From the NCBI GenBank assembly GCA_937944105.1, contig CALDZP010000017.1, forward strand, positions 1-64,000: 64,000 nucleotides of DNA, read 5' to 3'. Below, in pieces: positions 4,221-21,888 of this stretch; position 1 is the first letter of the stretch, and each line of letters opens with the position of its first letter. Source of the stretch: an uncultured Ignavibacteria bacterium. GTDB taxonomy: Bacteria > Bacteroidota > Ignavibacteria > Ch128b. The notes under the pieces are model-generated. The model was given only the letters and a program-made list of their open reading frames with translations. It was not told the DNA's origin and made no database searches. The position numbers were made by a program, and so were the translations under genes.

Positions 4221-5642
4221 TCATAATTTATTAAAAACAGCAAGCTTTAATTCAGTCATTTCTTCAATTGCATATCTAATTCCTTCTCTACCTAAACCAC
4301 TTTCTTTAATGCCTCCATATGGCATATTATCCACACGAAAAGTTGGATAATCATTGATCATTAAACCACCAACTTCAACATTTTCAAAGGCATAAAGAGC
4401 ATTTTTTAAATTATTCGTGAAAATACCTGCTTGAAGTCCATATTTAGAGTTATTTATTTGGTTAATTCCTTCCTCAAATGAATCAACTGGTTCAATTGTA
4501 ACTACTGGCGCAAAAACTTCTAAAGCATTAACTTTCATATCGGGTGTTGTGTTAGTAAGAACAGTAGGCTTGTAAAATTCTCCTTTTCTTTTTCCACCAA
4601 TTAAAATTTTTGCACCTTGTTTTTGTGCTTCATCGACCCATTCTTCAATTCTTTTTGCATCGTTTTCTGTAATCATTGGACCTACGATTACATTTTCATC
4701 AAGAGGATCACCACATTTAACTTTAGAGGTTTCTTCTAAGAATTTATTTAAGAATTCATTAAAAATTTCTTTATGTACAAATATTCGTTGAACTGAAATA
4801 CAAATCTGACCCGAATGCGCAAAAGAACCACTTACTAGTCTTGGTATAGCAAAATCTAAATCTGCATCTCTATCTACCATAGCACCTGCATTTCCACCAA
4901 GTTCGAGTGTAACTTTTTGTTTAATTGCAAGTTGTTTAATTCTCCATCCAATTTCGCAACTTCCAGTGAAACTTATTTTTTTTATTCTTTCATCACTTAA
5001 AAATTTTTCCAGACTAGATCCCGAACAATTAATTGAATTAATCAAGCCTGGTAAATCAGATGCTTCATTTATAATATTTGCTAATTTGTTTCCAGTTACC
5101 ATTGCAGCAGTTGCAGGTTTAAAGATAACAGTATTTCCTGCGGCAATGGCTGGAGCAATTTTATGCGCTGCGAGATTTATCGGGAAATTAAATGGTGTAA
5201 TAGCTAAAACAGGTCCTACTGGAAATCTTTTTGTGATTCCAAATCTATTCTCAGATTGAGCAGTTACATCTAAGTTTAAGACTTCGCCAGTTAATTTATC
5301 AACTTCTTCGGCAGCAAATTGAAATGTATTTATAGCACGATCAATTTCAATACGAGATAGTTTTATTGGTTTTCCTGTTTCTATTGAGATAAGCTTTGAC
5401 AACTCTTCTTTTTGATCCAACAGCGCTGTAGCTACTTTTTGAAGTATTTCTTTCCTTTTATATGCTGGAAGTTTTCGACTAATTCTAAATGCATTGTGAG
5501 CAGATTGAATTGCATTTTCAATATCATTATCAAAAGATAATGAGCACGTAGCAAATACCTGATGAGTAGATTTATTTTTTACATTAGTTTTTTTTGAAGT
5601 TAGAATTAAATTCCCATTAATTATAAATCCAGTGTGTAACAT
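4221..5642 (-). CDS. NAD(P)-dependent aldehyde dehydrogenase
   Basis: A 473-residue aldehyde dehydrogenase superfamily enzyme that oxidises an aldehyde to a carboxylate. Catalytic residues are visible: E247 in LELGGN and nucleophile C281 in SGQICISVQRI. The cofactor-binding TPFNFPINL (149-157) and ISFTGS (223-228) segments are present. The substrate cannot be read from sequence; the family includes lactaldehyde, succinate-semialdehyde and betaine-aldehyde enzymes. The ATG at 5642 has a GGAGG six bases upstream. It is divergent from a GbsR/MarR-type regulator and a fatty-acyl-type operon, so it probably belongs to the same catabolic unit. Confidence 0.88.
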   Translation of the reverse strand: MLHTGFIINGNLILTSKKTNVKNKSTHQVFATCSLSFDNDIENAIQSAHNAFRISRKLPAYKRKEILQKVATALLDQKEELSKLISIETGKPIKLSRIEIDRAINTFQFAAEEVDKLTGEVLNLDVTAQSENRFGITKRFPVGPVLAITPFNFPINLAAHKIAPAIAAGNTVIFKPATAAMVTGNKLANIINEASDLPGLINSINCSGSSLEKFLSDERIKKISFTGSCEIGWRIKQLAIKQKVTLELGGNAGAMVDRDADLDFAIPRLVSGSFAHSGQICISVQRIFVHKEIFNEFLNKFLEETSKVKCGDPLDENVIVGPMITENDAKRIEEWVDEAQKQGAKILIGGKRKGEFYKPTVLTNTTPDMKVNALEVFAPVVTIEPVDSFEEGINQINNSKYGLQAGIFTNNLKNALYAFENVEVGGLMINDYPTFRVDNMPYGGIKESGLGREGIRYAIEEMTELKLAVFNKL

Positions 5643-8306: not shown

Positions 8307-9779
8307 ATGTCAGCTAAAATTTATCTGACAATCATAATTTTATTATATGTAATAGGTATAATTTTACTAACTATCATTGGTAAAAAGAAAAAGCAGTCAA
8401 TTGAAACTTATTCAATTGGAAGCAAAAGAGTAAATCCTATTGTTATTGGTTTATCTCTTGCTGTTGGTATGACAAGCGCTGCTACTTTTGTGATTAACCC
8501 GGGACTGGTTTATTTATATGGCTTATCAGGTTTTATTGGCTATGGTATAGCTGCACCATTGGGGATTTATCTAGGATTAATAATCATGTCAAAAAAATTT
8601 TTGAAATTTGGAGAACAAACCCAAGTGCTTACAGTTCCCCAGTGGATTGGTGAAAGATATAAAAGCAAATTTTTTACAATCTTTTATGCAATTATTGCAT
8701 TTCTTCAAATCACATTTGCTGTTCTTATAGTTGTTGGAATTACAATTGTCCTTGCAAATTCATTTGGCGTTACCTATGAATTAGTACTTGTTCTTGTCTT
8801 GTCTTTTTCGGTACTATACTTATTTTTTGGAGGTGGTGTAAATGTTTTGCTTTTTTCGAATGCTCTACAATCTGTTTTTATGATTCTTGCAGCTTTATTA
8901 TTTCTATTTTCAGGTCCAATTTTCTTGGATTTGTCATTAAGTGAACTTTTTAATCAATTAAAAGAGATTGATAGTTCACTTGTTTCTATTACTAATCCAA
9001 ATAGTTTATTATTTAGAGATATTTTTGAAGTGTTCTTTGTTAACTTTTTAGTTGGTGTGGCAATTATTTGTCAGCCACATATTATTTCAAAAGCTTTATA
9101 TCTTAAATCGGAGAAGGACTTGAATAAATATTTAATTACAGTTGTAGTTGTTGCATCTCTTTTCTTTTTTGTCCTGTTTACCGGACTCTATGCAAGAGTT
9201 GCGTTGATTGGTGATTTAGTTAAGCCAGATCAGGCTATTTCAAAATATATTAATCAAACTTTTCCGCCTTTACTACTTGCTATTGTTACTCTTGGAATTA
9301 TATCTGCGGGGTTTTCGACTCTTGATAATATTTTAGTTGTTCTTTCTTCAATTTTCTCGGTAAACATTTTAAAAGAATTTTTAATTAAAATTAAACCGAA
9401 TTTGGATGAAGATAAGCTAAAGAATATTTTATTAATTTCATCTAAAATCTTTCTATTCTTTTTGGCTGTCATCATTTATTTTTTTGCTATCGATCAAATT
9501 TATTATCCCAATCTTTCTGTAGCTATTTTCGCTCAAAATGGTGTTTATGGTTTATTTGTTACTACTTTCTGGCCTATTTTACTTGGACTATTTAGATCAA
9601 CTATTAAAAAAATTTTTGTTTTTCTTGCAAGTTTAATCGCTTTCTTGATTCATTTCGGATTTTACTATCTCAAAATAACTATTTATCACAATAATCCGGG
9701 TGCTACTGCTGCTTTTTCTTTAATCATTAGCGGAATCTTTGTTCTTTGTATTATAATAATTACAAGGATTAAAAAATGA
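8307..9779 (+). CDS. Sodium:solute symporter family transporter
   Basis: A 490-residue, highly hydrophobic inner-membrane protein with about 13 predicted membrane helices, matching the sodium:solute symporter (SSF) family in length. The N-terminal region (GSKRVNPIVIGLSLAVGMTS, residues about 38-57) is the usual SSF signature zone. It should import a small solute with Na+; given the acyl-CoA ligase downstream, a carboxylate is the likely substrate. A GAGG ribosome-binding site precedes the ATG, and the gene overlaps the ligase gene by 4 bases (ATGA). Confidence 0.88.
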   Translation: MSAKIYLTIIILLYVIGIILLTIIGKKKKQSIETYSIGSKRVNPIVIGLSLAVGMTSAATFVINPGLVYLYGLSGFIGYGIAAPLGIYLGLIIMSKKFLKFGEQTQVLTVPQWIGERYKSKFFTIFYAIIAFLQITFAVLIVVGITIVLANSFGVTYELVLVLVLSFSVLYLFFGGGVNVLLFSNALQSVFMILAALLFLFSGPIFLDLSLSELFNQLKEIDSSLVSITNPNSLLFRDIFEVFFVNFLVGVAIICQPHIISKALYLKSEKDLNKYLITVVVVASLFFFVLFTGLYARVALIGDLVKPDQAISKYINQTFPPLLLAIVTLGIISAGFSTLDNILVVLSSIFSVNILKEFLIKIKPNLDEDKLKNILLISSKIFLFFLAVIIYFFAIDQIYYPNLSVAIFAQNGVYGLFVTTFWPILLGLFRSTIKKIFVFLASLIAFLIHFGFYYLKITIYHNNPGATAAFSLIISGIFVLCIIIITRIKK

Positions 9780-13483: not shown

Positions 13484-14428
13484 ATGAAACTGAATTTATT
13501 TTTTATAGCTGTTTTGTTTTTAAGTATCATATTCAACTGTTGCTCCGGTTTTATCCATACTAAAAAGCCGCCGCTCGAATTTTCTGATATTGATTATGGT
13601 TTTGATGTAAAATATACCGATTCCTCTCCAAAGTTAGCATATATTGACGAAGGTAAGGGTGATGTTGTACTGCTTATTCATGGACTTGCAAGTAATGCAG
13701 GTTTCTGGAGATATAATATACCTGAGCTTTCAAAACATTTTCATGTTATTGCATTGGATCTTCCAGGATATGGGAAATCTGAAAAGGGTAACTATTCATA
13801 TAAAATGACTTTTTTTGCACAGACAATTAAAAATTTCCTGGATGATTTGAAAATAGATAAAGTTAATTTTGTTGGTCATTCAATGGGTGGACAAATTGGA
13901 ATTTGGTTCTCGATAATGTATCCTGAAAAAGTAAATAAACTTATTCTTGCTTCATCAGCTGGATTTGAAAAATTTAATAAAGGAGAAGGCGAATGGTTAA
14001 AAAGTGTAGTTAATGTGAGAAGTATAAAATCTACTAATGAAGAAGGTGTTAGACGAAATCTTAGTAATAATTTTTATAATTGGAATAATAAATTGGAATG
14101 GATGGTTGAAGAAAGAGTTAGAATGTCAAAAGCAAAAGAATTTGATTTATTTGCCAGAGCTGTTTCAAAATCTGTAGCTGGAATGATTGATGAACCTACT
14201 TACAATAAACTTGATCAAATTAAAGTACCGACTTTGATTATTTATGGTAATAAAGATGGATTAATACCAAATCCTTATTTACATCCTGGCTTTGCTGCAG
14301 ATATATTTACTATAGGAAAAGAAAAAATAATTGGCTCTGTATTGGTAGAAATCAAAGATTGTGGTCATATGATAATGATTGAAAGACCCGTCGAATTTAA
14401 TAGAGCTATTATAGAGTTTTTAAAGTAA
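13484..14428 (+). CDS. Secreted alpha/beta-hydrolase
   Basis: A 314-residue alpha/beta-hydrolase with an N-terminal export signal ending near NCCSG (possible but non-canonical lipobox). The oxyanion HG motif is LIHGLAS (64-70), the nucleophile S133 lies in GHSMGG, the acid is D258 in GNKDGL, and the base is H295 in CGHMI. It should hydrolyse an ester or related bond in the periplasm or at the outer membrane. It starts 10 bases after the barrel gene with GAGG upstream. In this context it could release the carboxylic acid that the island then imports and activates. The substrate is not known. Confidence 0.85.
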   Translation: MKLNLFFIAVLFLSIIFNCCSGFIHTKKPPLEFSDIDYGFDVKYTDSSPKLAYIDEGKGDVVLLIHGLASNAGFWRYNIPELSKHFHVIALDLPGYGKSEKGNYSYKMTFFAQTIKNFLDDLKIDKVNFVGHSMGGQIGIWFSIMYPEKVNKLILASSAGFEKFNKGEGEWLKSVVNVRSIKSTNEEGVRRNLSNNFYNWNNKLEWMVEERVRMSKAKEFDLFARAVSKSVAGMIDEPTYNKLDQIKVPTLIIYGNKDGLIPNPYLHPGFAADIFTIGKEKIIGSVLVEIKDCGHMIMIERPVEFNRAIIEFLK

Positions 14429-14808
14429 AAATGTGGTTCTCAAAAGATGAATTAAGCAATTAAAAAAGGGGAATTGTTTTAAATATTTACTACAAATAAC
14501 TTGATTACATTAACGTTTATTTTATATTTATACTGATTTGAAGAATTCTAAAAATTTTAATTTTTCAACCCTTTTGTTATATATTCCTATAACATAACTA
14601 ATGTAAGTAATTACTTAATAAATTTTATTAATTTTCTTACAAAATTTAACATAGATTTAGTTGTTTATTTTTTTACTTTTACAATAAGAAAAATTTTGAA
14701 TTATGATAATTAAATTTTTTCTCCAGATTAAGTTTATGGTTCTATAATGCTTATGCGGGAAGGGAGAAGTTAGATCGTAAAAAAATTAAAATTAATGAGG
14801 GTGATAAA
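14429..14808. other. AT-rich intergenic region before the T9SS cluster
   Basis: About 380 bases with no convincing gene. It must contain the promoter of the following cluster; a TATAAT box is visible at 14743-14748 but no good -35 partner. I see no riboswitch fold. Confidence 0.5.
14743..14748 (+). promoter_or_regulatory. Candidate -10 box for the small protein/T9SS cluster
   Basis: TATAAT lies 61 bases before the ATG of the 38-residue protein. No convincing -35 element is found 17 bases upstream, so this is weak, and AT-rich sequence gives such matches by chance. Confidence 0.2.
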
Positions 14809-14925
14809 ATGACAAAAAATAGAAAACCTCGTCAAAGGACAAATTCTACGGGGGATTATTTTCTTATAACATTTATTATTATTGTTTCAATACTATTTTT
14901 TGCTTCATCGAAAATATGGAGCTAA
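14809..14925 (+). CDS. Tiny single-span membrane protein, SSxIWS family (copy 1)
   Basis: A 38-residue protein. The N terminus is strongly basic (KNRKPRQR), followed by NSTGD, a hydrophobic span of about 19-20 residues, and the C-terminal end SSKIWS. Positive-inside topology would put the IWS tail in the periplasm. GAGGG (14797-14801) lies 7 bases before the ATG, supporting translation. The same pattern (basic, NS-GD, span, SSQIWS stop) recurs in a 39-residue gene at 21690-21809, on the other side of the three T9SS cargo genes. The matching ends in two separate places argue that both are real genes. No known family comes to mind. Confidence 0.7.
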   Translation: MTKNRKPRQRTNSTGDYFLITFIIIVSILFFASSKIWS

Positions 14926-14983
14926 AAAAATATGAGAGAATTATATTTTAAATTTAAGAAATTTTTAAACACATAGAGGTTTT

Positions 14984-17900
14984 ATGTTAAATAAAATATT
15001 TACATGTTTTTTTATTTTTATCTCCATATCAACATTGTGTTTTGCTCAGGGCCCTGGTGGAATTGGTGATAATACAACATTAAAATTATGGTTAAAGGCT
15101 GATGATTTAAGTCTAAACGATGGTGATCCAGTAGATAATTGGCCAGATGCATCAGGAAATGGGAATCATGCTTCGCAAGGAACAGTGGTTAATCAACCCA
15201 CTTTTTATACAAATGTTATAAATGGGAAACCCGCTGTTTCATTTGATGGAATAAATGACTATTTAACCGGTTCATTAGGTGCTCTAAATTCACCATTTAC
15301 AATTATAATTGTAGGTTATTTTGATTATGTTAATCAACCTGCTGGAGATTATGATTACTTAATAAATTTAGGAAATGGAACACCTAATGCTAATGTAAGC
15401 ATGTCAAGATGGGCAAGTGATGGTTCGAATAACAATAAGTATTATGTTTATAATGGTAGTGCTGTTTATTATGGACCGGTATTAAATGGTAATCAGTGGT
15501 TATTACTTTCTGCTGTTCATAAAACAAGTGCACCGAGAAATAATCTTTTTATCAATGGTACTGCACAAACGGTTGATGATTATCCAGCTTTGTTAAACAC
15601 AAATGGTTCTTATACTTTAGGTCGATTCGAACCTACTGCAACGCATTATCTTTATGGGAAAATTGCCGAGGTTATTGTTTATAACTACGCACTAAACTCT
15701 GCTGAGAGAACTTTAGTTGAAAATTACCTTTCTGAAAAATACAATCTCTCCATAAGTAATGATAAATATTCAAACACTGCCGGATATAGTTTCGATCTAA
15801 GAGGAATTGGGAAAGAAAATGATGGTACACATACTCCATCCAAAACTTCAAAGGGATTGGAATTAATTGATGCAGGTTATTTACAGGATAATGGTGATTA
15901 TGTTTTATTCGCACATAATACAAGTTCAAATTCTGAAGTAAATACAGATTTGCCAGCCTACCATAAAGCAAGGTGGAGTAGGATTTGGTTTTTAGATTTT
16001 AATGATGTTTCTTCAAATGGTGGTAATATTACTTTTACATTTGATTTGAGTGAATCAGGTTTGGGGGGTGCTCCTTTTGCTCAGCAAAATTATACATTAC
16101 TTTATCGTGCTGGTACAAGTGGTATTTTTTCAGTTATAGATTCTTCAGCTTCCGTTTCTGGTGACCAAATAAGTTTTACAGTTAATGTTAACTCTTTAAG
16201 TGATGGATACTTTACTCTGGGTAGAAGAGGACCATTAACAATTACCAAGCAAATTAAGCCAGCAAATTTTGGTTCTATTTCTGGTCCCACTTCAGTAGAT
16301 TATGGTAACAATGTGTCATTTACAATTGCCCCAGCACCAGGAACTCATATTGGAATGTTACTTGACAATAATTCACCCAAAGGAGCAATTACTTCATATA
16401 CAATTAATTATGTTATGGAAGATCACACTATAATTGCAACATTTGGTTATAATGCTTCAATGGTTTTTGGTAGTCCAGATATAATTGTCAATGAATGGTC
16501 ACAAGGCGCTTCTGCTAACCAAGAATGGATAGAATTACTTGTAGTAGGAGACACAACTTCTCCGAATGTGGATTTGAGGGGTTATAAAATTCTTGCAAAT
16601 GTAACCAGTCCTGTTTCTTCAGCACCTACGTACTATATTGAATTTACAAATAATTCAATGTGGTCTTCTGTTCAGCGAGGTAGTATAATTGTGCTGTACA
16701 ATGGTAACAATAAGGATGCTTCATTGCCCGCTGATGATTTTTCACTTTCAGGGGACTTTAAAGTTGTTATACCACATAATAATTCAACTTATTTCAATGT
16801 AGTTGGAACGGGTGTCTGGAATAATACATCTAATGAGTTTTTTAATAATTTAAATGTTAATGATTATCCAATTATTTTTGATAATGAATGGATTCCAAAT
16901 TTTGATTGGGGTTATCAGGGTCCTGGTGTTGCAATACATCCTGGAACGGGACAATTAGCTTATTATACTTCATATTACGGTAATTGGGGAAATCCAAATT
17001 ATTGGGAAGTTACACTCTCTACCAGTGGTTATCCAGCAAGAGATAATGGTGGTGATAATTTGATTTTTGTTAATGCAATGAGATTAAACAGACCATCTAT
17101 TCAAATAATTCCTCCTGCAAGTCCTGTCCCATCAGAATCAGGAACGCAGTTAAACTTTACAATTAAATTTGGTACTGAGATTCCAGTATATAATGTAGTT
17201 GGAGTCTCCTTTAAATTTAGAAGGGGTTGGCAGTATTATTTTAAGTTGACAGGTGCATTTTACTCTGCTCCATCACAAAGTTTATTTGCATCAGGAAGTG
17301 CTTTTGTAGATACTACAACTGAATCCGGTGTAATTAATTTTGCAGCTATTAGAAACAATAATTCTGAAACATATACGGGGACTGGGGGCACAATTACTAC
17401 ACTACCACTCGTAATTGTGCAAGATTTACCAAATGCAGCGAATGTTAATTTCTTTCTTACAGATGTTTATACGCTTGATAATAATGGAGAATATATTCCA
17501 CTAACCCAAGTTACTTATCAATATAATTTAACATTTTTAAGTTCTTCCGGTGGAAATATGATTTATAGAGTTGGTAAAGGGGATTCAGATCATGATGGCG
17601 ATGTAGATTTAGATGATGTTTCTGCATTAGCTTTACGGTTTGGTGAACAGGGAGGCGCTGTTCAAGGTATCATTAATTGGAATACCTGTTCTGTGATTAC
17701 CCGTGATCCATGGGGAGTTGATGCAGGAAGAAATCCAGCAACTGATGTTTTAGCAGTTTGGTGCGATCACAATGGTGATGGCAGGGTTGGAAATCTGGAT
17801 ATATTACAAATTGGTTTCTGCTGGAGTAGCACATATTCCTATTCCAAAAAGAAAGTTGAAAATTTAGCAGAATCAAATAGTAAAATTAAATATAGAATTA

Positions 17901-18568
17901 GAGATTCTGAAGGCAAATTAGTTTCTAAGTTCGAAGAATTTAAAGAGTATTCAATTGAGTTATATATCGATGAATTAAATGGTGCTCAGTCAATTAATTT
18001 TATTCTAGATTTTAATAGTAATTTAATAGTGCTTGATTATAAAGTCAGTGAAGATTTAATATCTAATTCGAAAGATTTTATTCAATTCATAAAGAATGAT
18101 GGTAATCGATTTTATGTTGCATTAGCAAAACCAGTTTATGAAGGAACTTTCAATGGTGCAAATATTGAACTAATTAGATTCAGGATAAAATATCAACAAT
18201 TAGATAATAACTTGATTGTAATTAATGATCCAAAATTAATGGATTCAAATGGAAACTTTTATAATTTGAAATTTGATTCGAATCTTAACAATTCATTACC
18301 TGATAAATTCGAACTTTCTCAGAATTATCCTAATCCATTTAATCCATCGACAATAATTAGTTTTGCTTTACCTGAGGCATCAAGAGTAACATTAATAATC
18401 TACAACTCAATTGGTGAAGAAATTTCGAAATTAATAAGCAACGAATTTTTTGAAGCGGGTACATATACAAAAGAATTTAATGCTACTAATTTATCAAATG
18501 GGATCTATTTTTATCGTTTAATCAGTGAAAATTATACAGCTATTAAAAAAATGGTTTTGCTTAAGTGA
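14984..18568 (+). CDS. Large T9SS cargo protein: LamG, lamin-tail, cohesin-like, dockerin-like
   Basis: A 1194-residue secreted protein. A signal peptide (about 1-21, FAQG) is followed by a laminin-G/concanavalin-like domain (about 27-240; LKLWLKADD, WPDASGNGNHAS), a linker with a repeat-like Ig fold (about 425-495), a lamin-tail-like domain opening with NEWSQG (about 503), a cohesin-like beta domain (about 705-860), a dockerin-like module and a second cohesin-like domain. The module has two calcium loops starting at D867 (DSDHDGDVDLDD) and D928 (DHNGDGRVGNLD), separated by a long Cys-containing insert. The last 85 residues are a class A T9SS sorting domain (NYPNPFNPST ... KKMVLLK). No enzyme domain is seen; probable surface binding or scaffold role. 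Confidence 0.82.
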   Translation: MLNKIFTCFFIFISISTLCFAQGPGGIGDNTTLKLWLKADDLSLNDGDPVDNWPDASGNGNHASQGTVVNQPTFYTNVINGKPAVSFDGINDYLTGSLGALNSPFTIIIVGYFDYVNQPAGDYDYLINLGNGTPNANVSMSRWASDGSNNNKYYVYNGSAVYYGPVLNGNQWLLLSAVHKTSAPRNNLFINGTAQTVDDYPALLNTNGSYTLGRFEPTATHYLYGKIAEVIVYNYALNSAERTLVENYLSEKYNLSISNDKYSNTAGYSFDLRGIGKENDGTHTPSKTSKGLELIDAGYLQDNGDYVLFAHNTSSNSEVNTDLPAYHKARWSRIWFLDFNDVSSNGGNITFTFDLSESGLGGAPFAQQNYTLLYRAGTSGIFSVIDSSASVSGDQISFTVNVNSLSDGYFTLGRRGPLTITKQIKPANFGSISGPTSVDYGNNVSFTIAPAPGTHIGMLLDNNSPKGAITSYTINYVMEDHTIIATFGYNASMVFGSPDIIVNEWSQGASANQEWIELLVVGDTTSPNVDLRGYKILANVTSPVSSAPTYYIEFTNNSMWSSVQRGSIIVLYNGNNKDASLPADDFSLSGDFKVVIPHNNSTYFNVVGTGVWNNTSNEFFNNLNVNDYPIIFDNEWIPNFDWGYQGPGVAIHPGTGQLAYYTSYYGNWGNPNYWEVTLSTSGYPARDNGGDNLIFVNAMRLNRPSIQIIPPASPVPSESGTQLNFTIKFGTEIPVYNVVGVSFKFRRGWQYYFKLTGAFYSAPSQSLFASGSAFVDTTTESGVINFAAIRNNNSETYTGTGGTITTLPLVIVQDLPNAANVNFFLTDVYTLDNNGEYIPLTQVTYQYNLTFLSSSGGNMIYRVGKGDSDHDGDVDLDDVSALALRFGEQGGAVQGIINWNTCSVITRDPWGVDAGRNPATDVLAVWCDHNGDGRVGNLDILQIGFCWSSTYSYSKKKVENLAESNSKIKYRIRDSEGKLVSKFEEFKEYSIELYIDELNGAQSINFILDFNSNLIVLDYKVSEDLISNSKDFIQFIKNDGNRFYVALAKPVYEGTFNGANIELIRFRIKYQQLDNNLIVINDPKLMDSNGNFYNLKFDSNLNNSLPDKFELSQNYPNPFNPSTIISFALPEASRVTLIIYNSIGEEISKLISNEFFEAGTYTKEFNATNLSNGIYFYRLISENYTAIKKMVLLK

Positions 18569-18643
18569 GGATAATTAAAGAATGGTAAAGTATAGCAAAA
18601 CATTAATTAACATAAAATTAAAAATTAAAAATATGAGGGTACT

Positions 18644-20839
18644 ATGAAAAGATTATCTATATCCTTCGTTCTATTCGTTTTCTTTGTGCTGGTAATACTT
18701 GCAGCACAGCGCCTATTTGCACAGACACCAACCCCTAAAAGTGTAATTTTTAATGAATGGTCACAAGGTAATACAACAGATGGTGCTTCAGCAGAATGGG
18801 TAGAACTTTTGGTGGTAGGAAATCCATGTGATACTGTTTTAAATCTTGCTGGATTAAGATTACAAAAAGTTGCTGGAGTATCAACAAATTATATTGAATT
18901 TAAAAATATTCCTTTATGGACGGCTGTTCCTCGGGGAACAATTATAGTTATTTACAATGGTGCTAATAAATCATCTGTCTTACCTGCTGATGATTTTTCA
19001 TTCTCAGGTGACTATAAAGTTGTAATACCTCATAATAATGCAACATATTTTACAACGAGTGGGACAACTTGGGGAGCTGGAACTGAAATGTTTGCTAATT
19101 CTTTTAATTCTTCACAACAACCAGTTCTACGTTATGGTGGTACCGATATATTTGTATGGGGGACGGATGGGCCGGGAGCTGGTGCATATCCCGGTACGAA
19201 TCAATTAGTTTATTATAAATCGCATTATAATAGTGGAACATATACCCCAGTTTCTAATTGGGAAGTTGCAGCTTATAATGCTGGTTATCCAGCTTCGTAT
19301 AATACCGGTGACAATATTTTATTTGTTCAAGGTTTAAGACAGAATAGACCATCGATAAAACTTGAAACAACATCCCCGGTTTCTGGAATGATGGGTAATA
19401 CAATCTATTTTGATGTTAAATTAGGTTGTGAGATACCGGCTGCTAATGTAATAGGAGTGTCGTTTATATTTTATCGAAATTGGCAAGACTATTTTAGTGT
19501 ACAAGGTGCTTTTTACAATACTCCATATGTTCCAGGGTATAATTTGTGGGGTAATGGAAATGGTACAGCTTTAGCTGATTTAGTAGTTGAACCTGGGAGA
19601 TTACATTATTCAACTTTTAGAACAAGTGGGCCACCCTATTGTGGAGGATGTGGATATGTTACTCGAATACCTCTTGTCATCCAAGGTACTTTACCAAACG
19701 GTGCCGTGTGTAATTTTATGTTGCTTGAAATGTATGCAATGCTTTCCAATGGTAATGTTGTATCTTTGATTAAGTTTGACGAAGGTGTTGATGTTACATT
19801 TATTACAGGTACAGCGGGTGGTCTTATGTACTATAAAGTTGGGAAAGGTGATTCAGATCACGATGGTGATGTAGATCTTTCGGATGTAACAGCTTTAGCA
19901 ACAAGATTTGGTGAACAGGGTGGTGCTGTACAGGGAATTGTAAATTGGAATACATGTTCTACTATTATTCGCGATCCATGGGGCGTAGATGCAAGTCGTG
20001 ATCCTTCTACAGATGTACTAGCTATGTGGTGTGATCACAATGGTGATGGTAGAGTAGGTAATCTTGACGTTTTAGCAATTGGTTTATGCTGGAATTCATC
20101 TTATACTTATACTAAGTCAAATCCTGTTAAGAATTTACCGTTAGCATCAAGTGAACTTGCATTGAAGGTTTATAATAGAAATGGGCAATTAGTTAAAAAA
20201 TTAATTCCTGGTGAAGAATATGATTTTGTTTATAGTGTAATGAATGCAAACGATTTGTTGACAGCTTCTTTTGAATTGAATTGGGATGATAATCTTGAAT
20301 TTATTGATTATAAAATTTCTGAACCGTTCAAAAAGAACTCAACCAATTTTATTGAATTTGTAAAAATGATGAATAAGTCAGCAGCTATTGCTCTTGCAAG
20401 AGTATGGTATGATGGCTCTATTTCAGGGGACGAAATTGAATTGATAAGATTCAAGTTTAAAGTAAATCAGACTAATGATATAAAACTTGATTTAATGAAT
20501 CCAGAGTTAAGAGATGGAAGTGGCAAACTTTACAGAATGCCCGTAAATCTTCCAGATCTTACATCGAGTCCGTCTAAATTTGCATTAATCGGAAATTATC
20601 CAAATCCTTTTAATCCATCGACCATAATTAAATTTGAATTGCCTGAGCAAAGTTATGTAAGCTTAAAAGTCTTTAATACTCTTGGACAGCTTGTTCAAGT
20701 ATTAATAGATAATGAAATTCTTGAAGCTGGAAGATACGAGAAATTATTTGATGGATCAAAATTGACGACCGGTATTTATTTCTATAAACTTGAAACACCA
20801 AATCATAGTGCAATTAAAAAGATGGTGTTAATAAAATAG
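18644..20839 (+). CDS. T9SS cargo protein, paralogue lacking the LamG domain
   Basis: A 731-residue secreted protein that repeats the C-terminal two thirds of the preceding protein. A signal peptide (about 1-27, LFAQT) leads into the lamin-tail-like NEWSQG domain, a cohesin-like domain (about 245-390), dockerin-like loops starting at D403 and D464, a second cohesin-like region (about 510-630) and a class A T9SS sorting domain (NYPNPFNPST ... KKMVLIK). The dockerin segments of the two proteins are near identical, including WNTCS and WCDHNGDGRVGNLD. This points to tandem duplication with loss or gain of the N-terminal LamG domain. It probably shares a transcript with its neighbours and is exported to the cell surface. 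Confidence 0.82.
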   Translation: MKRLSISFVLFVFFVLVILAAQRLFAQTPTPKSVIFNEWSQGNTTDGASAEWVELLVVGNPCDTVLNLAGLRLQKVAGVSTNYIEFKNIPLWTAVPRGTIIVIYNGANKSSVLPADDFSFSGDYKVVIPHNNATYFTTSGTTWGAGTEMFANSFNSSQQPVLRYGGTDIFVWGTDGPGAGAYPGTNQLVYYKSHYNSGTYTPVSNWEVAAYNAGYPASYNTGDNILFVQGLRQNRPSIKLETTSPVSGMMGNTIYFDVKLGCEIPAANVIGVSFIFYRNWQDYFSVQGAFYNTPYVPGYNLWGNGNGTALADLVVEPGRLHYSTFRTSGPPYCGGCGYVTRIPLVIQGTLPNGAVCNFMLLEMYAMLSNGNVVSLIKFDEGVDVTFITGTAGGLMYYKVGKGDSDHDGDVDLSDVTALATRFGEQGGAVQGIVNWNTCSTIIRDPWGVDASRDPSTDVLAMWCDHNGDGRVGNLDVLAIGLCWNSSYTYTKSNPVKNLPLASSELALKVYNRNGQLVKKLIPGEEYDFVYSVMNANDLLTASFELNWDDNLEFIDYKISEPFKKNSTNFIEFVKMMNKSAAIALARVWYDGSISGDEIELIRFKFKVNQTNDIKLDLMNPELRDGSGKLYRMPVNLPDLTSSPSKFALIGNYPNPFNPSTIIKFELPEQSYVSLKVFNTLGQLVQVLIDNEILEAGRYEKLFDGSKLTTGIYFYKLETPNHSAIKKMVLIK

Positions 20840-20850
20840 TTTTCTTAAGT

Positions 20851-20880
20851 GGGGGAATTATTAATTCCCCCTTATTTTAA
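20851..20880 (+). terminator. Hairpin terminator between cargo genes
   Basis: GGGGGAATT (20851-20859) and AATTCCCCC (20863-20871) form a 9-bp stem with a 3-base loop, followed by TTATTTTAATT. The U tract is imperfect, so partial read-through into the cohesin-like gene is possible. Confidence 0.7.
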
Positions 20881-20895
20881 TTATATGGTTGAAAA

Positions 20896-21681
20896 ATGAA
20901 GGGTATAATAAATTCATTAATTATTTTTTTTGGTTACATTCAAATTATATCTGCTCAGGCAAGTATTAAGCCAGTTTGTCCAAGTTCTGTAATAGGTAAC
21001 TTTGGAAACACTTTCACCGTTGATATTGTAGTTGGTGATCCAGTACCTGTAACTGATTTATTCTCGGCATCATTTACTCTTACTTTTACAAACACTACAT
21101 ATTTAAATTATAATGGTATAATGGCTGGAAATTTTTTAGGAGGAAGTCCTTTTATTTTTGCTGAGCCGAGTGGTGACAGAGTGAGTGTGGCAATTACAAG
21201 TATACCTTCCGTTGGACCATCGTCAGGAAGTGGCGTATTGGCAAAAATATTTTTCAGAATAACAGGAACAGTATCGAGTCCAACAGTAAATTATTTTAAT
21301 ATTATCAAAGCCTTTGGATATAAACAAAATGGAGATACAATTAGATTATATCCACAAGAAACTATGATGACTATACAATCAGCAACAGGTGTTTATAGTG
21401 AGGATATAATCTTTGATTATCAATTGAAGCAAAATTTCCCTAATCCATTTAATCCTAAAACGAATATTTCTTTTACCATTCCAAAAGAAACATTCATTGA
21501 TCTTTCGGTCTATGATATAATGGGTAATTTAGTCAAAACTCTTGTAAATGATAAATTATTAGCAGGGGATTATATTGTTGAATTTGATGCAACAGAATTT
21601 AATATCAGTTCCGGGGTTTATTTCTATAAACTTAAAACACCGGAATTTACATCTGTAAAAAAAATGGTTTTAATTAAGTAG
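20896..21681 (+). CDS. Cohesin-like T9SS cargo protein
   Basis: A 261-residue secreted protein with a signal peptide (about 1-21, ISAQA), one cohesin-like all-beta domain (about 25-155; pattern G-TFTVDIVV, a long strand-rich middle, then SGSGVLAKIFFRITG) and a class A T9SS sorting domain (about 178-261; NFPNPFNPKT ... KKMVLIK). Cohesins bind dockerin modules, and the two preceding genes encode dockerin-like loops, so this small protein is a candidate surface receptor for them. That is inference: no binding residues can be verified from sequence alone. The second tiny membrane protein gene begins 8 bases after its stop. Confidence 0.78.
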   Translation: MKGIINSLIIFFGYIQIISAQASIKPVCPSSVIGNFGNTFTVDIVVGDPVPVTDLFSASFTLTFTNTTYLNYNGIMAGNFLGGSPFIFAEPSGDRVSVAITSIPSVGPSSGSGVLAKIFFRITGTVSSPTVNYFNIIKAFGYKQNGDTIRLYPQETMMTIQSATGVYSEDIIFDYQLKQNFPNPFNPKTNISFTIPKETFIDLSVYDIMGNLVKTLVNDKLLAGDYIVEFDATEFNISSGVYFYKLKTPEFTSVKKMVLIK

Positions 21682-21689
21682 GTAAAATT

Positions 21690-21809
21690 ATGATTCGTCA
21701 AAATACTAATAAAAGTAGACCGCGAAAAAATTCAGGGGATTTAATCTTACTTCTTCTAGTTGTTGTTATTACTGCTTTATTTGTTATGTCCTCTCAAATT
21801 TGGTCTTAA
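21690..21809 (+). CDS. Tiny single-span membrane protein, SSxIWS family (copy 2)
   Basis: A 39-residue protein starting 8 bases after the cohesin-like gene, so it is probably translationally coupled to it. It has a basic N terminus (KSRPRKNSGD), a leucine/valine-rich hydrophobic span and a C-terminal SSQIWS. It matches the 38-residue protein at 14809-14925 in length, charge pattern, the NS-GD motif and the last six residues (SSKIWS there). A strong terminator lies downstream, so this gene closes the T9SS cluster. Likely an inner-membrane protein with a periplasmic IWS tail. Function unknown; a role tied to export or assembly of the cargo proteins is a guess from position. Confidence 0.7.
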   Translation: MIRQNTNKSRPRKNSGDLILLLLVVVITALFVMSSQIWS

Positions 21810-21842: not shown

Positions 21843-21888
21843 AAATGTTCAGTGAAACAATTCATTTGTTTCTCTGAACATTTTTTTT
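21843..21888 (+). terminator. Strong intrinsic terminator of the T9SS cluster
   Basis: An 18-bp inverted repeat with one mismatch (21843-21860 and 21866-21883) is followed by a run of eight T that begins within the right arm. It closes the transcription unit after the 39-residue protein. Confidence 0.9.

Follow-up and report, generated by a model that had tools for sequence, protein, structure and literature searches.

The Gene Cluster

The window analysed is a stretch of 64,000 nucleotides from the genome (G000; 2.74 Mb, 96 contigs, 99% complete) of an uncultured Ignavibacteria bacterium. Its plus strand carries three genes encoding secreted proteins, bracketed by two very small genes, s1 (14809..14925) and s2 (21690..21809), both of which are found as open reading frames at exactly the coordinates given in a preliminary description of this DNA. 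Cargo 1 (14984..18568) encodes a protein of 1194 amino acids with a LamG-like region and repeats of the domains of cargo 2, cargo 2 (18644..20839) a protein of 731 amino acids, and cargo 3 (20896..21681) a protein of 261 amino acids with a beta-rich domain whose cohesin type is unproven. Each of the three has a Por_Secre_tail domain that passes the Pfam and NCBIfam cut-offs (E 1.1e-10, 2.4e-12, and 2.1e-8, respectively), and they are thus members of the known T9SS type A cargos (TIGR04183/PF18962). The preliminary description had called them secreted T9SS proteins and had further labeled the cluster as cohesin/dockerin. No Pfam or PDB sequence match was found for a cohesin domain in cargo 3, the fold model of which was too poor for use, and this label is left without support. 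For the dockerin label a weak match is present, but it falls below the cut-off (PF00404, E 0.007). Cargo 1 and cargo 2 are paralogous, being 52% identical over the LTD-like to dockerin-like part of cargo 2.

The genes are closely spaced, with 58 nt between s1 and cargo 1, 75 nt between cargo 1 and cargo 2, and 8 nt from the stop codon of cargo 3 to the start of s2. A pattern scan alone indicates a terminator-like hairpin in the gap between cargo 2 and cargo 3 (20851..20871, plus strand), and a strong terminator-like hairpin followed by a run of T closes the cluster after s2 (21843..21883, plus strand). G000 and five relatives, G001-G005, make up the family f1, and the hairpin after s2 has an equivalent in G002 and G001 in which the stem is changed. 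Upstream of s1 lies a conserved non-coding element of 29 nt (14738..14766, plus strand), which is promoter- or leader-like and contains TATAAT. It occurs once in the genome, even when three mismatches are allowed, and is kept upstream of s1 in G002 and G004 and absent in G003. Inspection of the sequence showed that the GG-GC spacing is unsuitable for a sigma-54 promoter, and this assignment was rejected.

The Two Small Membrane Proteins

The 38-aa protein encoded by s1 is MTKNRKPRQRTNSTGDYFLITFIIIVSILFFASSKIWS, and the 39-aa protein encoded by s2 is MIRQNTNKSRPRKNSGDLILLLLVVVITALFVMSSQIWS. Each is a predicted membrane protein with a basic N terminus and a single helix; s1 has NSxGD and ends on SSKIWS, and s2 has NSGD and ends on SSQIWS. 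The similarity reported earlier, comprising the basic N terminus, the NS-GD motif, the hydrophobic span, and the C-terminal end, amounts to 16 invariant columns (M..K.R.R.NS.GD..L..........LF..SS.IWS). In a comparison of the window's 219 ORFs with lengths of 30-48 aa, s1 and s2 were the top-scoring of 23,871 pairs with a BLOSUM62 score of 75, the runners-up scoring 58 and 52 and both being antisense to two paralogous cargo genes. The hydropathy peaks are 2.6 and 3.2 for s1 and s2 (17-residue mean), and AlphaFold2 predicts one helix in s1 comprising residues 13-37 (mean pLDDT 82.6). The ribosome-binding site of s1 is GAGGG, and this, together with the short distance from cargo 3 to s2, agrees with the good ribosome-binding site and the tight coupling that had been noted for the two genes.

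The two genes are the sole copies in G000. Neither protein has a match in Pfam, NCBIfam, PHROGs, or PDB, so the earlier statement that they could not be matched to a known family stands for these collections. They contain no cysteine, as the lipobox of a bacterial lipoprotein would, and they have no T9SS CTD, are not themselves cargos, and match no T9SS component family. With around 40 residues and one helix they resemble the small single-pass membrane regulator Ecr (NF033861), to which s2 has a sub-threshold match (13.2 bits against a cut-off of 33, E 0.057). They differ from Ecr-type regulators in being linked to secreted giant proteins.

Distribution and Coding Constraint

A profile made from s1 and s2 found relatives solely in f1, where homologues are present in five of the six genomes and in each of these adjoin T9SS cargo genes. 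Two copies were found in each of G002 and G003, and one each in G004, where the contig ends just behind the gene, and in G001, where a contig end is close by; the same search gave no homologue in G005. A profile of all eight s1/s2-type sequences gave nothing credible outside f1 when run over 391 genomes of the class, and the more promising of these outside matches proved on reading to be chance helices or pieces of other frames. A degenerate 75-base DNA pattern matching typical members was slightly tightened for a species-wide search, and had two matches in 84,980 GTDB species, both in Ignavibacteria MAGs (JAOAHM010000081 and CAKZPH010000226). It had no match in viral contigs.

Among the relatives the s1/s2-type genes display pN/pS values of 0.09-0.38, and the third codon positions change most in every pair. 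For each of eight pairs, none of 2000 permutations gave as few non-synonymous changes as observed. Four genomes from three genera have the same C-terminal end of s1, VSILFFASSKIWS, and the last 6-13 residues are the best-conserved part of s1 across the three genera. s1 and s2 are real, conserved coding genes under purifying selection; a lack of conserved homologues or of coding constraint, either of which was named beforehand as a ground for giving up the proposal, was not found.

This constraint bears on the idea that the small genes are conserved hitchhikers or leader ORFs, of which the translation matters, through coupling or attenuation, and not the product. The position of s1 as the first gene behind the conserved leader element and that of s2 8 nt behind cargo 3 would suit such a function. 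The constraint, however, acts at the amino acid level and includes the tails, and s2 is kept in G002 where cargo 3 is missing. Because of the amino acid constraint this is the weakest of the explanations considered, and we regard it as highly improbable.

An Exchanged Cargo with a Constant Signal Peptide

In both G002 and G003 the two small genes enclose just one T9SS protein, which is composed of Fn3/Ig repeats and is 1193 or 1262 aa long. These two giants are 53% identical to each other. What cargo 2 shares with this type of protein is limited to the T9SS CTD (54%) and, with 24 residues in common among the first 29, the signal peptide. The signal peptide of cargo 2 (MKRLSISFVLFVFFVLVILAAQRLFAQ; 18644..18724, plus strand) is unusually conserved, with 22 of 27 residues (81%) identical to that of the G002 cargo and 19 of 27 to that of the cargo in G003, which belongs to another genus. 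The background was taken from ten secreted proteins that G000 and G002 share as orthologues and whose signal peptides can be recognised; these signal peptides are 20-56% identical and the mature parts 64-86%. Cargo 3 follows this usual pattern, its body being conserved and its signal peptide divergent; the orthologue in G001 is 70% identical. Within G000 the cargo-2-type signal peptide is found only at this locus, and in the genomes compared it otherwise rises above noise solely in an orphan small ORF in front of s1 in G003.

Neighbouring genes of G000 and G002 have pS values of 0.62-0.69 and an amino acid identity of 75-84%, and by this measure the evolution of the s1-linked signal peptide resembles that of a functional domain of a protein. 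The pS values of s1 and the signal peptide are somewhat lower (0.44 and 0.50) over few codons, which may be due to chance or to recent exchange. Judged from these comparisons the constants of the locus are s1, s2, and the signal peptide of one cargo, and the mature cargo has been replaced in the window. The preliminary description had suggested a dedicated membrane component for the cohesin/dockerin cargos. Conserved, predicted membrane proteins tied to T9SS cargo are indeed present. What they flank in G002 and G003 is an Fn3/Ig giant, however; it is with a single lineage of cargos that they are linked, and not with cohesin/dockerin cargos. A dedicated role would be a further step, considered below.

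The genome of the window encodes 97 T9SS sorting domains, but contains only one locus of the s1/s2 type. SprA_N was detected in G000 and in all five relatives tested. With so many sorting domains and with SprA present, s1 and s2 are unlikely to be general parts of the T9SS. The GldL model TIGR03513 found no match in the f1 genomes tested although SprA is present, so the T9SS motor parts are either diverged or absent in this family.

Many small membrane proteins are known as regulators of larger ones, and s1 and s2 might in the same way regulate a sensor kinase, a protease, or the Yip1-domain protein encoded after s2, merely sharing an operon with the cargo. An apparent counterpart of the Yip1-domain gene is found after s2 also in G001 and G002. 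The terminator-like hairpin stands between s2 and this gene, however, and the cargo behind s1 is constant in three settings with differing upstream genes (G000/G002, G004, and G003). The neighbours other than the cargo differ also for the second peptide family described below, and a regulator of this kind seems rather improbable.

Probable Remnants of Lost Cargos

Ahead of s2 in G002 there is no cargo 3 but its last approximately 26 codons (L055, minus strand, about 9030-9110), and a similar degraded stretch was recognized by eye before s2 in G003 (L056, about 206-330). The orphan ORF of G003 is a signal-peptide-like sequence of around 31 codons, located just before s1 and preceded by a good ribosome-binding site (L056, minus strand, about 4981-5074). 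It may be what is left of a lost cargo, or else encode a further small peptide. These remnants indicate that s2 has outlived a cargo at least once, and they would explain the bracket by tandem units: most likely, as far as the sequences can tell, the two copies derive from tandem cargo-peptide units of which some cargos have been lost. As s2 is kept in G002 despite the loss of cargo 3, it is not strictly a partner of cargo 3, a point that counts against the dedicated role discussed below.

A Second Peptide Family Behind Giant Cargos

Homologues of the G002 giant are found in a second Ignavibacteria family, f10, and their surroundings were listed without use of a profile. Nearly all of the f10 giants are followed by an ORF on the same strand, 28-34 codons long and encoding one hydrophobic helix. 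When T9SS genes of every kind were considered, 52 had sufficient sequence downstream, and 13 of these were followed by such an ORF: in nine cases the gene is an f10 giant, in three the ORF is a copy of s2, and one case is probably due to chance. A profile built from ten of the f10 peptides and run over the 391 genomes irrespective of position had 43 matches with E < 1e-4, distributed among 30 genomes, all of them f10 (L167-L196, also L160-L166). At all 28 f10 loci read, 21 of which are in genomes outside the profile set, the gene for the 29-30-aa peptide follows, at a distance of 0-94 nt, one whose product has a T9SS CTD at its end, as scored with a model made from f1 cargos only. The cargo is similar to the G002 giant at 27 of the 28 loci. 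A ribosome-binding site precedes nearly all of the peptide genes, and the median pN/pS is 0.26 (100 pairs). In L162 two and in L164 three units of giant cargo and peptide are arranged in tandem beside a pair of transporter-like genes.

The f10 consensus is M[KR]KL-x-AS followed by a hydrophobic stretch and LALYACHQAYF, in which a lipobox-like LxAC leads into a short, aromatic tail; in two members the cysteine is replaced by S or A. No Pfam or NCBIfam family matches these peptides. When s1 and s2 were compared with them the hhalign probability was 18%, and against the f10 profile s1 and s2 reach only the scores of ordinary signal peptides, so that their membership of the f10 family is not supported. 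The same holds for an f10-type identity of the f1 signal peptide or of the orphan ORF of G003, their scores lying within those of signal-peptide controls. The position and the general plan, with a helix, small residues, and a short aromatic tail, correspond between the two groups, and in G002 and G003 the f1 peptides have the same placement as those of f10, adjoining an Fn3/Ig-giant T9SS cargo. The f1 and f10 peptides are consequently treated as positional analogues, as sequence does not prove homology.

Both families might instead encode precursors from which a very short peptide or lipopeptide is secreted, to serve as a kin or density signal beside a surface adhesin. The helix would then be a signal sequence, with putative cuts at ASS|KIWS and SS|QIWS in s1 and s2, and in f10 either the LxAC would give lipopeptides resembling C-HQAYFA or the cut would fall at AA|QTAFF. 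The concentration of conservation in the last residues of s1 fits this idea, as do the short, aromatic, and conserved tails behind the lipobox-like motif in f10, where a small residue precedes the tail when cysteine is absent. With its 14-16 aa and its invariant GD, however, the N-terminal region of s1 and s2 is long and differs from that of a plain signal sequence, the helix predicted by AlphaFold runs on to residue 37, and no receptor, transporter, or sensor was linked to the genes. We therefore consider a signaling precursor unlikely.

The arrangement also resembles that of colicin/bacteriocin release lipoproteins and of entericidins, where a tiny gene is likewise found directly behind the gene of a large exported protein. 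The lipobox-like LxAC of the f10 members is a further likeness, while the f1 members have no such cysteine. The tails of release lipoproteins comprise about 28 residues, compared to 4-7 in the present peptides. A toxin- or lysis-type membrane peptide, comparable to type I toxins or to the release lipoproteins, that releases the cargo by permeabilizing the envelope would agree with the size, the single helix, and the position directly behind a gene for a secreted protein, and one f10 member is weakly similar to entericidin B (E 0.098). This similarity is at noise level, though, the sequences are strongly conserved with the tail included, and an Rfam scan of the cluster gave no RNA match, and so no antitoxin. 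Such an activity appears decidedly improbable.

Possible Function at the Membrane

The likeliest reading, in which our confidence is a little less than even, is that s1 and s2, along with the f10 peptides, are cargo-dedicated membrane micropeptides acting on the export or display of the cargo. In its favour are the purifying selection, the steady placement beside T9SS cargo, the signal peptide kept along with s1 on an exchanged mature protein, and the second peptide family behind homologous cargos. The basic N terminus suggests an N-in/C-out orientation, and s1 and s2 would be single-pass inner-membrane proteins with the basic tail inside and the short aromatic tail outside. Their synthesis would accompany that of a single lineage of giant T9SS surface proteins, and they would act at the membrane step by which these are made or displayed. 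Since the signal peptide is the only part of the cargo that is conserved along with s1, the signal-peptide helix or Sec is a natural candidate for the partner; the helix of s1 or s2 might pack through L-F-x-x-S-S against the signal-peptide helix, Sec, or an inner-membrane part of the T9SS, and thereby influence export, anchoring, or quality control. The unusual conservation of the signal peptide makes the idea of such a partner directly testable. Besides the retention of s2 without cargo 3, it counts against a cargo-dedicated role that s1 and s2 resemble the f10 peptides no more than signal peptides do, that the f1 peptide family is known from five genomes only, and that no peptide was detected behind the giant cargos of G072.

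A more far-reaching version, which we consider rather doubtful, would be that the Fn3/Ig giants of Ignavibacteria are accompanied by a dedicated membrane micropeptide of 29-40 aa, which has either arisen two or more times or changed so far that the relationship can no longer be recognized. Its target would be the signal-peptide helix of the cargo, on which it would act within the inner membrane or, in the form of a lipopeptide, from the periplasmic side. Each such cargo would thus pass through an export or quality-control step of its own before reaching the T9SS translocon.

Models of the T9SS comprise sorting domains, translocon, motor, and sortase, and to our knowledge a small membrane protein of this kind, serving as partner to a specific cargo, is not among their parts. 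Partners of the SprF/PorP type are encoded behind T9SS giants such as SprB, SprF being an outer-membrane beta-barrel of around 300 aa. The likeness lies in a cargo-specific partner gene behind a giant T9SS protein, while the present peptides differ in being single helices of 29-40 aa encoded behind type A cargos. A search with partial coverage of the literature found nothing linking Ignavibacteria, T9SS, and small proteins. A small membrane protein encoded beside its partner is a known kind of part; as far as tested, the class of partner and the two peptide families are new. Two families tied to one class of giant cargo would offer a concrete way into the question of how Ignavibacteria export or display their very large surface proteins, and both the s1/s2 and the f10 peptides would illustrate what annotation pipelines with size cut-offs overlook.

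An alpha/beta hydrolase gene of G072 (L159, 11566-12519), located near a giant cargo in f10, encodes an N-terminal motif resembling that of the gene at 13484-14428 of the window (DIDYGF/EIDYGF). This suggests old synteny.
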